Source of the DNA: Candidatus Omnitrophota bacterium
Lineage (GTDB): Bacteria > Omnitrophota > Gorgyraeia > Gygaellales > Profunditerraquicolaceae
DNA length: 41,198 nucleotides
NCBI GenBank assembly: GCA_026387405.1
Contig: JAPLLV010000050.1
Coordinates: 1 to 41,198 of the forward strand
Direction: 5' to 3'
Under the pieces are notes generated by a model. It made no database searches, was not told where the DNA came from, and worked only from the letters and a program-made list of their open reading frames with translations. Numbering within the stretch: the stretch's first letter is position 1; every line of letters starts with the position of its first letter. Both the position numbers and the translations under genes were made by a program. Positions 34,585 through 37,871 of this stretch are shown here, piece after piece.

Positions 34585-34613
34585 TTGACAATCACCTGTT
34601 CATAGGTTATACT
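34585..34613 (+). promoter_or_regulatory. promoter of the secreted FN3 protein gene
   Basis: TTGACA at 34585-34590 and TATACT at 34608-34613, spacer 17. Start near 34620, leaving a 165-base leader. Confidence 0.82.
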
Positions 34614-34643
34614 TAAACATTAAATTAATTTATAAAGATGTAT

Positions 34644-34736
34644 AAAATCCGGTGGTCCTGAATATGGAGGTATTTAGGATTGCCACGGAAGTTTATGATC
34701 CGGATTGACAAAAAATTGGTCAATACCGGATTTTTT
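34644..34736 (+). ncRNA. riboswitch-like transcription attenuator
   Basis: A two-part element. Upstream domain: CCGGTGG (34649-34655) with CCACGG (34683-34688), enclosing CCTGAATA (34657-34664) with TATTTAGG (34671-34678). Terminator: ATCCGGATTGAC (34698-34709) with GTCAAT-A-CCGGAT (34719-34731), then TTTTTT. The 5' bases AAAATCCGGT (34644-34653) are a perfect 10-base complement of ACCGGATTTT (34725-34734) in the terminator's 3' arm, so an antiterminator competes with the terminator. I recognise no published ligand class. Confidence 0.65.
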
Positions 34737-34784
34737 GTTACGGGTAGGATAAAGCATTTTCTAATATTGAGGGGGATCATAAAA

Positions 34785-37700
34785 ATGAGTAGATTAAGAA
34801 AAATATTTTCATTGGCAGTTTTTGTCCTGGGGATTACAGCGGGGCTTAATAATGTTTTCGCTGGATCCGAGGATCCCCGCATCACCTGGTTAAAGGTAAA
34901 TACAAGCAAAGATACCGGTCTCCCCTATAGTTTTCAGTTGCCTGCGGACCCTGATAGGCGTAAACAGATTTTAGAAGGGATAACCGCGGACAAGCCGAAA
35001 GATGCGATTATTGAGCGGGTGATCGTGAGTCAGGGATTGGAGGTCTATGACGGCGCTTGCTGGCAGATCGCGCTTGTGGCAACCGGCGATAAGGAGACAA
35101 ATCTGCCATTGGCACGTGTACCAATAGATAAATATTGGGATGGCGATTTACCCCATCTTTGGGCTATCAGGGGCGGTTATTCTAAAATAAATTCCAACCA
35201 GCAGTTTGTCTATGATCCGAAAAATCCAGGCGTAATATCGGAGGGTCCGTATAACCCCGGCTCCCGCGGTTTTATCTTCCGTATTATCGATGCTGATGGG
35301 AGATGGGAAACGCCGGATCCTTTAGACGGTAAAACGCATTCACCAGACTTTCCCGGGCCTGAATATGACAAGGGTTTAATTGTCTGGCAGGATTGGAGAC
35401 CTATTGCCGGAGAGAATGCCTGGGTGGTAATGGCTGCCCTGCAGCGCTTCCACGCCAAATATTACGATGCGATAAATAAAAGGTACAGCGTACCTTCTCA
35501 AGATATAATCACCTATGTTACCGACCGGACAATGCGGGAAGCAAAAGAATCAGCCTTAGTTAGAGAATTGGCCCGCTGCGCATTGATCCTTCAGGCGGAT
35601 AATGGCGGCATCCGCGTGGCTCCTATCGGAACCTATTATGCCCCCGGTAGCGGCGACGATTGGTATTATAATGAGATCTTCACGGAAAACAATTGTTCCT
35701 GGTATGCCGCTTTTCGCATGCTCTACGCGGTTACCGGGGATGGGCAATACAAAAATGCGATGGACGGAATTGAGCGTTATTTGAAATCAGCCTGGGACCC
35801 CCAGGATAAGATCTTTTATCAGGGCACGCATTATAACAACGGCGCATGGGAGTTTAATATTGCCACGCCCTTTGCCGTTGATTGCCAGACCTGGGCTATC
35901 TGTGTCTTAGGCCCGGAGCGGATCGATTCCTGGTTTGGCGAAGGCTCGGCCTATAATATGTGGCAAAAGGCCAAGCAGCTTTCCGGTTATACTGTCCAGG
36001 GAAAACTATTAGGCGTAGGCTATTCTACCGAACATGACCGTATGTCCATTGAATGGACCGCAGGAGCAGTGTTGGCCTGCAGGATAATGTCGGACTATTA
36101 TAAAAATACTCATCCGGATTGGTCATTGCAGGCAAGTCAAGATGCGCAGAGCATGCGAGAAGGTATTGATGGAGACGGTACTAATGTTTTTAAACATCAG
36201 GTTGCCGCAGATCAGGTTGGCTATTCCTATTCTTCCAAACGGGCTCCCATACCATTTGGCTGGAATTCGCTTGACCCTGATGTGTTAAGCACAACTTCTA
36301 CTGCCTGGGTGTATTTTCTGGATTCAGGATTCAATCCCTTTATACTGGGAGGTAAGACAGCGTTTACTCCCAGTGATTGCACTCCTCCTTCTACCCCCAG
36401 GGTAAGCGTAAGCATAAATACTGTTTTAATCGATCAACTTTATGCCTCCTGGAGGTCCCAGGATTTGGAGTCGGGTATTCTGGAGTATCGGTATAAAATA
36501 ACCGAAGGGAGCATTGATGGTTTGGTCGTAAGGGATTGGACAAGAGTGAGGGGAGTTAATTATGTTACTGCCGGGGCATTGAACCTTACCATAGGCAAAA
36601 CTTATTATTTTTCCGTGCAGGCAGAGAATAACGTAGGTTTGTGGAGCCAGACCGGATATTCTTCCGGCACAACCGTCATCGCCAAAAAACCTCCGCAGCC
36701 GATGGCGGATCTTTTTGCAGCGGGAATTTCTACCAGCGAAATAAAGCTATTAATGATGGATAATGTTCTTAACCAGAAGGACGGGGTGAAGATCGAACGC
36801 AGCATAGACGGCCAGGCGTTTACCCAGATAGCGAATATTAGCCCCTATGCCGGCTTTATTGATTCTGGCCTAGAGGCAAACAAGACATATTTTTACCGCT
36901 GCCGGCTCTATAATTCGGCGGGGGAATCTTCTTATACGCCCGGTCCTGGTGAACCTTTAGCATCAGCAACGACCTTTGCGCCTTTAGATACCACAGCGCC
37001 AAGCACCCCGGTGGTCCGTGACGACGGAGATTTTACGGAGAATACGAAATCCCTGACCGCCTCGTTTACATCTGAAGATAAGGAATCAGGCGTAGTGCAG
37101 TATATGTATCGCATCACTAAGGATATGCCTACGGGTGAAGCAATTACGGATTTTAAATTCGTGGATAAGCAACCCGGAATAGGTATTGTAGTTTTACAGT
37201 CAGGATTGAGGTTAACCGAAGGCAAGACCTATTATTTCGCAGTGAGAGCCAAAAACGGAGCAGGCCTTTGGAGTGAAACAGGGTATTCAGATGGCATAAC
37301 TATCCGCACCGTACCCGCTACTCCCACTGGACTCACTGCCGGCGCTGTATCCACAAGCCAGATAAAATTAAGCTGGAAGGATAACGCAAAAAATGAGACA
37401 GGCTTTAAGATTGAGCGCAGCTTAAGTGCCAATTCAGGTTTTACCCGGATAGCCAGCGTAGGCGCTAATGTCACCACTTACAACAATACCGGGCTTAAGT
37501 CCGGCACCGCCTACAATTACCGGGTACGTGCCTATAACTCAAGTGGCAATACCGCGTATATCGCCACAAACACCACTACCCTGACTGTTGCCGCGCCCAC
37601 TAATTTAACTGCCAGCGCGGTGTCCACAAACCAGATAAAATTAAGCTGGAAGGATAACGCAAATAATGAAAGCGGCTTTAAGATCGAGCGCAGCTTAAAA

Positions 37701-37871
37701 GCCAGTTCAGGTTTTACCCGGATAGCCAGCGTAGGCGCTAATGTCACCACTTACAACAATGCCGGCCTTAATCCCGGCACCACCTACTATTACCGGGTAT
37801 GTGCCTATGATAGCAGCGCAAATTCTGCGTATTCCAATTCGGTGAGTGTTACCACAAGCAAAAAAAAGTAA
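34785..37871 (+). CDS. secreted protein with helical-toroid-like domain and five FN3 repeats
   Basis: 1028 residues from ATG 34785 (GAGGGGGAT upstream; earlier starts lie in the leader RNA). A signal peptide ends near VFAGS. Residues about 30-520 are Trp/Tyr-rich with the look of an (alpha/alpha) toroid enzyme: RELARCALILQADNGGI, NCSWYAAFRMLYAVTGDGQY, STEHDRMSIEWTAGAVLACR. Then come FN3-like modules at about 532-630, 634-730, 734-840, 844-933 and 935-1026. It is probably secreted and polysaccharide-acting, but I recognise no catalytic family. There is no sorting signal at the C-terminus. It has its own promoter and attenuator. Confidence 0.78.
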   Translation: MSRLRKIFSLAVFVLGITAGLNNVFAGSEDPRITWLKVNTSKDTGLPYSFQLPADPDRRKQILEGITADKPKDAIIERVIVSQGLEVYDGACWQIALVATGDKETNLPLARVPIDKYWDGDLPHLWAIRGGYSKINSNQQFVYDPKNPGVISEGPYNPGSRGFIFRIIDADGRWETPDPLDGKTHSPDFPGPEYDKGLIVWQDWRPIAGENAWVVMAALQRFHAKYYDAINKRYSVPSQDIITYVTDRTMREAKESALVRELARCALILQADNGGIRVAPIGTYYAPGSGDDWYYNEIFTENNCSWYAAFRMLYAVTGDGQYKNAMDGIERYLKSAWDPQDKIFYQGTHYNNGAWEFNIATPFAVDCQTWAICVLGPERIDSWFGEGSAYNMWQKAKQLSGYTVQGKLLGVGYSTEHDRMSIEWTAGAVLACRIMSDYYKNTHPDWSLQASQDAQSMREGIDGDGTNVFKHQVAADQVGYSYSSKRAPIPFGWNSLDPDVLSTTSTAWVYFLDSGFNPFILGGKTAFTPSDCTPPSTPRVSVSINTVLIDQLYASWRSQDLESGILEYRYKITEGSIDGLVVRDWTRVRGVNYVTAGALNLTIGKTYYFSVQAENNVGLWSQTGYSSGTTVIAKKPPQPMADLFAAGISTSEIKLLMMDNVLNQKDGVKIERSIDGQAFTQIANISPYAGFIDSGLEANKTYFYRCRLYNSAGESSYTPGPGEPLASATTFAPLDTTAPSTPVVRDDGDFTENTKSLTASFTSEDKESGVVQYMYRITKDMPTGEAITDFKFVDKQPGIGIVVLQSGLRLTEGKTYYFAVRAKNGAGLWSETGYSDGITIRTVPATPTGLTAGAVSTSQIKLSWKDNAKNETGFKIERSLSANSGFTRIASVGANVTTYNNTGLKSGTAYNYRVRAYNSSGNTAYIATNTTTLTVAAPTNLTASAVSTNQIKLSWKDNANNESGFKIERSLKASSGFTRIASVGANVTTYNNAGLNPGTTYYYRVCAYDSSANSAYSNSVSVTTSKKK
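37320..37862 (+). repeat. 273-bp tandem duplication coding for the last two FN3 modules
   Basis: Stretches such as ACCAGATAAAATTAAGCTGG recur with a 273-base offset (91 codons) and few changes, showing recent duplication of one FN3 module. The start and end limits are approximate. Confidence 0.8.

Follow-up and report, generated by a model that had tools for sequence, protein, structure and literature searches.

A leader RNA with a conserved GGAGG hairpin loop, a probable transcription attenuator of exported-protein genes in Omnitrophota

We found that the leader of an exported-protein gene in a Candidatus Omnitrophota genome is, on comparative sequence evidence, a member of a previously undescribed cis-regulatory RNA family in one lineage of the Omnitrophota, a common and largely uncultured phylum. 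Comparison of the homologues established a hairpin with a GGAGG loop, an intrinsic terminator, competing pairings, a promoter and a link to genes for exported proteins. We consider it likely that the element is a transcription attenuator of these genes, in which termination would be the default and readthrough would occur when a factor recognising the GGAGG hairpin stabilises an antiterminator.

Results

Architecture of the leader

The leader was identified in the window, by which we mean the whole 41,198-nt stretch of contig JAPLLV010000050.1 that was analysed. It precedes a gene for a protein with fibronectin type III (FN3) domains and contains the following features.

34585..34613, plus strand: sigma-70 promoter, TTGACA (34585-34590), 17-nt spacer, TATACT (34608-34613)
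34646..34652, plus strand: antiterminator strand AATCCGG, whose partner is the terminator 5' arm (34700-34706) or, via CCGG, the hairpin lower stem
34649..34688, plus strand: putative recognition hairpin, from the fold and the covariation of its upper stem
34653-34664 with 34671-34682, plus strand: hairpin upper stem
34651-34652 (GG) with 34683-34684 (CC) and 34649-34650 (CC) with 34687-34688 (GG), plus strand: hairpin lower stem, AC 34685-34686 bulged
34665..34670, plus strand: apical hexaloop UGGAGG, with the near-invariant GGAGG at 34666-34670
34682..34687, plus strand: GCCACG at the hairpin base (alignment columns 82-93), GCC paired in the lower stem and AC bulged
34698..34736, plus strand: intrinsic terminator, loop 34710-34718, T-run 34731-34736
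34698-34709, plus strand: terminator 5' side, ATCCGGATTGAC
34700-34709, plus strand: terminator 5' arm, CCGGATTGAC, which includes CCGGATT (34700-34706)
34719-34731, plus strand: terminator 3' arm, GTCAATaCCGGAT, A34725 bulged, followed by T's
34785..37871, plus strand: controlled gene, 1028-aa exported protein with signal peptide MSRLRKIFSLAVFVLGITAGLNNVFA and C-terminal fibronectin type III domains

The promoter matches the consensus at 11 of 12 positions, and from its location the transcript should start near 34620 (predicted start about 34619-34621). The GGAGG of the hairpin loop is a perfect Shine-Dalgarno-like sequence. The gene itself has a ribosome-binding site at about 34769-34775 and its product matches Pfam fn3 (8.4e-24). 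Folding of the leader gave -39.8 kcal/mol, compared with a mean of -27.25 for shuffled sequences (z = -3.49), and none of 200 dinucleotide shuffles folded as well. A TTG at 34680, nine bases past GGAGG, opens a reading frame of 1063 aa that crosses the terminator and continues into the FN3 gene; one homologue (L101) has a comparable start in frame with its downstream gene. The in-frame TTG in the window is probably a coincidence.

An earlier note, made from the letters of the window, had described a riboswitch-like or protein-binding attenuator before the FN3-protein gene, and the presence of mutually exclusive structures that match no Rfam class agrees with this description. The terminator with T-run that it placed at 34698-34736 is present in the sequence. 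It also proposed a 10-base antiterminator pairing; we found that AAAATCCGGT (34644-34653) is indeed exactly complementary over 10 bases to ACCGGATTTT (34725-34734), and that the hairpin at 34649-34688 overlaps bases of this pairing, as had been pointed out. The Rfam search that the note suggested matched the leader to no known class: neither the whole window nor any of 20 homologous loci gave a hit to the 4227 models of Rfam 15 at gathering thresholds, and a permissive scan of the window returned two matches only, both at chance level.

Distribution of the family

A BLASTN search covering 98 genomes gave matches in ten, the nine besides the source genome all belonging to other genera; identities were 73-80%, in other genera and families. 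The convincing matches resemble the window copy in loop, CCGG strand and terminator, and one match (L011) was set aside as it looks spurious. A first covariance model, seeded with three copies found by BLASTN, was positive at E<=0.01 in 60 of 147 related genomes, a single genome holding as many as seven copies. The source genome holds a second copy (G000:C58:1807-1919, minus strand; L044). A second model was rebuilt from 64 copies and applied to 384 genomes drawn from the phylum, of which 36 carried the element at E<=1e-5, nearly all from one family and its order. When 84,980 named species were scanned with an exact pattern, six matches were obtained. Four of them are Omnitrophota and all score with the model; the other two, in Acidobacteria (Bryobacterales), do not score with it and were rejected as chance matches. 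Every named genome with a confirmed match belongs to the Omnitrophota.

A large number of copies are no more than about 300 bases away from a contig end (for example at G119:C6, G119:C16, G103:C13, G103:C22, G099:C59 and G024:C62), which suggests that long repeated genes behind the element break assemblies.

Conservation of hairpin, loop and terminator

Over hairpin and terminator, 94.2% of cells formed standard pairs in 65 aligned copies and the covariation score was 0.583, figures that are flattered by the model-fitted alignment but lie far above the controls (0.217 shuffled, at most 0.108 with slid partners). Double changes were found in 21 of 23 pairs. In the upper stem all ten pairs had changed on both sides, with 95.9% of cells paired, and across the family the 3' strand of the helix between loop and bulge measures between about 8 and 14 nt. 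The loop, flanked by this freely varying stem, reads GGAGG in 56 of 66 copies, AGAGG and GGGGG being the commonest exceptions; each of its G/G/A/G/G columns is conserved in 60-64 of 65 copies. GCCACG at the hairpin base is missing in some members that have a different antiterminator (L052, L054, L102, L089).

The terminator helix was 96.0% paired among 65 members. In the 5' arm CCGGATTGAC there is hardly any variation, least of all in CCGGAT, while the opposite 3' arm drifts through wobble pairs; the stronger constraint on the 5' arm is what would be expected if this arm has two partners. The distance from hairpin to terminator varies, extra hairpins being inserted in four copies (L044, L063, L065, L082), and a promoter comparable to that of the window lies upstream of most homologues.

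Competing pairings

The antiterminator pairing put forward in the earlier note, with the terminator 3' arm, is exact in the window but was not conserved: in 65 homologues 68.4% of cells were paired, 474 of 500 shuffles scored as high, and one of its seven pairs was unpaired in 57 of the 65. The covariation check that the note called for did support the hairpin, the terminator and a different pairing, that of AATCCGG (34646-34652) with CCGGATT (34700-34706) of the terminator 5' arm. Here 79.2% of cells were paired in 65 homologues, and the covariation score and the count of pair types were each matched by four of 500 shuffles. Compensating changes were found in L053 (CCGC/GCGG), L079 and L073 (AATTTGG/CCGAATT), L075 (AGTTTGG/CCAGATT), and L070 (TATCTGG) and L076 (TATTCGG), both with CCGGATA. 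Three copies of one genome (G063) have no CCGG and form a longer substitute pairing to the same 5' arm. For 33 of 66 copies the duplex of the pre-hairpin region with the 5' arm surpassed shuffled sequences at p<=0.05; that of the window copy was no better than shuffles (p = 0.18). The antiterminator was undetectable in about 5-8 of 66 members (L050, L057, L060, L064, L067, L068, L078, L100). Support for a conserved antiterminator that would exclude the terminator is moderate.

Pairing of CCGG within the hairpin lower stem also covaries, with none of 500 shuffles as high. As CCGG pairs both in the lower stem and in the antiterminator, the strand 34646-34652 can serve in only one of the two at a time, and the terminator 5' arm likewise enters either the terminator helix or the antiterminator. 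When folding was limited to transcripts ending with the 5' arm, this arm usually paired with the pre-hairpin strand, typically with AATCCGG. In these folding calculations 70% of members had the 5' arm paired upstream with a probability greater than 0.5 before the 3' arm was made, and in the complete transcript the terminator probability averaged 0.92. With the 5' arm paired upstream early and the terminator dominant late, an ON type fits at least as well as the OFF type that had been proposed, which is therefore not established. We lean towards an element that would be turned on by its factor.

Genes behind the element

Gene context was counted for the 58 copies that are followed by 300 nt or more of sequence. 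In 57 of them a same-strand gene begins within 400 nt of the element (median 73 nt). A start resembling a signal peptide, called by a simple hydrophobicity rule, was present in 51 of these 57 genes compared with 24 of 95 control ORFs (25%; p = 2.7e-15), the copies being not fully independent as several downstream genes are homologous, though distinct families are involved. One operon recurs behind the element (L124 (G045:C90), L096, L092, L049, L085). Its first gene encodes an exported protein of ~470 aa, its second a pilin-like protein of ~220 aa that is weakly DUF4402-like, and its third an exported protein of ~210-290 aa (VRLSIPPG), followed in L124 by a TPR/SdrD_B protein; the operon looks like an uncharacterised surface appendage. 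Other targets are a polysaccharide exporter (L093), FN3 adhesin-like proteins and exported proteins of large size (about 870 to 3000 aa).

Five of the downstream genes (L119 (G063:C28), L120 (G063:C29), L121 (G069:C72), and L127 and L128 (G024)) encode long, apparently exported proteins that combine an N-terminal signal peptide with later parts matching central-carbon enzymes, namely phosphoglycerate kinase, triosephosphate isomerase, fructose-1,6-bisphosphatase, phosphoglucomutase and 4-alpha-glucanotransferase.

Candidate readers of the loop

CsrA/RsmA sites present GGA in an apical loop, and GGA likewise lies within the apical loop of the Omnitrophota element. Unlike the setting of CsrA/RsmA leaders, the CsrA family (PF02599) was found in only one of 58 genomes, which was neither the source genome nor one of the element-rich genomes searched, and CsrA was rejected as reader of the loop. 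A reader of the BglG/SacY type, which acts on RAT leaders, was also rejected, as its CAT-RBD domain (PF03123) was found in none of 14 element-bearing genomes.

ANTAR proteins of the EutV/NasR/AmiR type bind two tandem small hairpins whose hexaloops have A at position 1 and G at position 4 (PMC3369931). The Omnitrophota element resembles ANTAR leaders in that a hexaloop hairpin lies upstream of a terminator and an antiterminator, protein-stabilised in the ANTAR case, overlaps the terminator 5' side (PMC3369931). It differs in having one long hairpin with a UGGAGG loop (U first, A fourth) and no second hairpin; a conserved second loop between hairpin and terminator was sought in the alignment and none was found. 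The element was therefore rejected as an ANTAR target. ANTAR-domain proteins occur in most of these genomes, one or two in each, and in none of 14 well-known control genomes. The source genome encodes two, of about 235 aa (G000:C23:4784-4942 and G000:C82:8819-8974). An ANTAR reader was rejected, since the protein is absent from the element carriers G018, G019, G024, G032, G062, G103 and G105, of which G024 is 96% complete and has six copies of the element and G103 is its congener.

LoaP is a NusG paralogue that recognises a UNCG-type loop in the dfn/mln leader hairpins (PMC12691694). As in LoaP leaders, a 5' leader hairpin is followed by an intrinsic terminator in front of long genes; unlike in those leaders, the loop is GGAGG and the host genomes have a single NusG. 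One PF02357 match was found in each of 50 of 51 element-positive genomes, and in the remaining genome two matches, at contig starts and to different parts of the profile, represent one split copy. A NusG paralogue of the LoaP/RfaH type was thus rejected.

A family of 106-aa proteins (MRDLLFKNLTS...RRHFVC...FFCRIKGS) is represented by G000:C58:2004-2321, next to L044 on the minus strand, and 16 homologues (alignment A6). Of 147 relatives, 103 carry a single copy of the gene, which in many cases immediately precedes the element and the 470-aa operon. No convincing match to Pfam, NCBIfam or PDB was found for this family. It was rejected as regulator because it is single-copy, is common as well in relatives in which no element was detected, and is missing in the carriers G024, G103, G044 and G053. 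A leader peptide was rejected as well: a start codon at the proper distance after GGAGG was present in 21 of 66 copies, which is about the chance rate as we estimated it by considering three start codons at nine positions, and the lengths of the frames differ.

Discussion

Proposed mechanism

An intrinsic terminator stands between promoter and gene and is conserved in the homologues, and a conserved alternative pairing that would exclude it has moderate support; both are marks of an attenuator. In the mechanism that we favour, RNA polymerase would start at the strong promoter, about 45 nt ahead of the loop, and AATCCGG, the GGAGG-loop hairpin and the terminator 5' arm CCGGATTGAC would emerge in that order. 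The 5' arm would pair back to AATCCGG with the hairpin enclosed, forming the antiterminator. The emerging 3' arm, gaining a foothold on the unpaired GAC of the 5' arm, would tend to displace this structure, and transcription would then stop about 50 nt short of the gene. If something that recognises the GGAGG loop were to stabilise the antiterminator, polymerase would read through. As the finished transcript strongly favours the terminator, the default is probably termination, and readthrough would need the antiterminator to be held. An intact lower stem would also favour termination, since it uses the same CCGG as the antiterminator.

What we infer from this arrangement is that a factor would exist, what kind it would be and which way the element would respond. 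The GGAGG loop would offer an obvious handle for such a factor, which would most likely be an RNA-binding protein. As the upper hairpin is present in both states, a factor binding the loop would also have to contact the hairpin base or the polymerase.

Alternative explanations

The element resembles riboswitches that terminate transcription in that an aptamer-like hairpin overlaps an antiterminator competing with a terminator, and it differs from them in matching no Rfam class and in consisting of one simple hairpin. The GGAGG hairpin with its GCCACG base could still be an aptamer, e.g. for a second messenger, whose ligand would choose between lower stem and antiterminator. The conservation of loop and bulge against a freely covarying helix, an expression platform with alternative pairings, a scattered regulon and the failure to identify a trans-acting protein among the NusG, CsrA, ANTAR and BglG/SacY candidates all point in this direction. 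We nevertheless regard a small-molecule riboswitch as unlikely, given a single hairpin with a six-base loop, in which no conserved junction or pseudoknot was found, and a helix between loop and bulge whose variable length leaves no single fixed pocket. GCCACG is moreover absent from part of the family, and what the targets have in common is export and no metabolic pathway. The ribosome could also be the reader, with the anti-Shine-Dalgarno sequence of the 30S subunit binding the geneless GGAGG, opening the hairpin and favouring the antiterminator, which would tie expression of the costly exported proteins to free ribosomes. Unlike each protein candidate tested, the ribosome is present in every genome; the anti-Shine-Dalgarno CACCTCC is canonical in the three relatives where it was found, and besides the 56 of 66 loops with GGAGG, variants such as GGGGG could still wobble-pair. 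But a six-base loop held by a stable stem is ill suited to forming a helix of 5-6 bp, start codons follow at a useful distance about as often as by chance (21/66), and we know of no ribosome-sensing attenuator of this design, so that we judge this explanation to be improbable.

Processive antitermination, in which the hairpin would load a LoaP-like factor onto RNA polymerase and the terminator would be read through with the alternative pairing unimportant, appears to us just as improbable. It would account for the LoaP-like layout of hairpin and intrinsic terminator before long genes (PMC12691694), for the flexible spacing between them with inserted hairpins in four copies, and for the often very long downstream genes. 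It would leave the invariant terminator 5' arm and its covariation with the upstream strand unexplained, and apart from the one split copy each genome has a single NusG-family gene. The own promoter and strong terminator would also suit an independent trans-acting small RNA of about 115 nt with a GGAGG seed, to which the gene behind would be incidental, and one copy (L006) has a further promoter-like sequence past the terminator. This we consider very improbable: in 57 of 58 copies a same-strand gene follows directly, at a median of 73 nt, these genes have export signals in common, and up to seven diverged copies per genome in front of different genes fit a cis element better.

Significance

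An attenuator stabilised by a loop-binding factor remains our preferred reading, and we would place the element among the transcription attenuators, as a new family within that known category. A bolder proposal, which we put forward as speculative and rather doubtful, is an RNA sensing system devoted to the exported proteome of this uncultured phylum, in which a GGAGG-loop attenuator would be read by a new class of RNA-binding antiterminator protein or directly by the ribosomal anti-Shine-Dalgarno, switching on large exported proteins together. Among the papers searched, none names both Omnitrophica and riboswitches. The family yields a named regulon, in which a common RNA switch would stand before pilus-like operons, a polysaccharide exporter, and FN3 adhesin-like and very long proteins, and it raises the testable question of which factor reads a bare Shine-Dalgarno-like loop with no start codon behind it.
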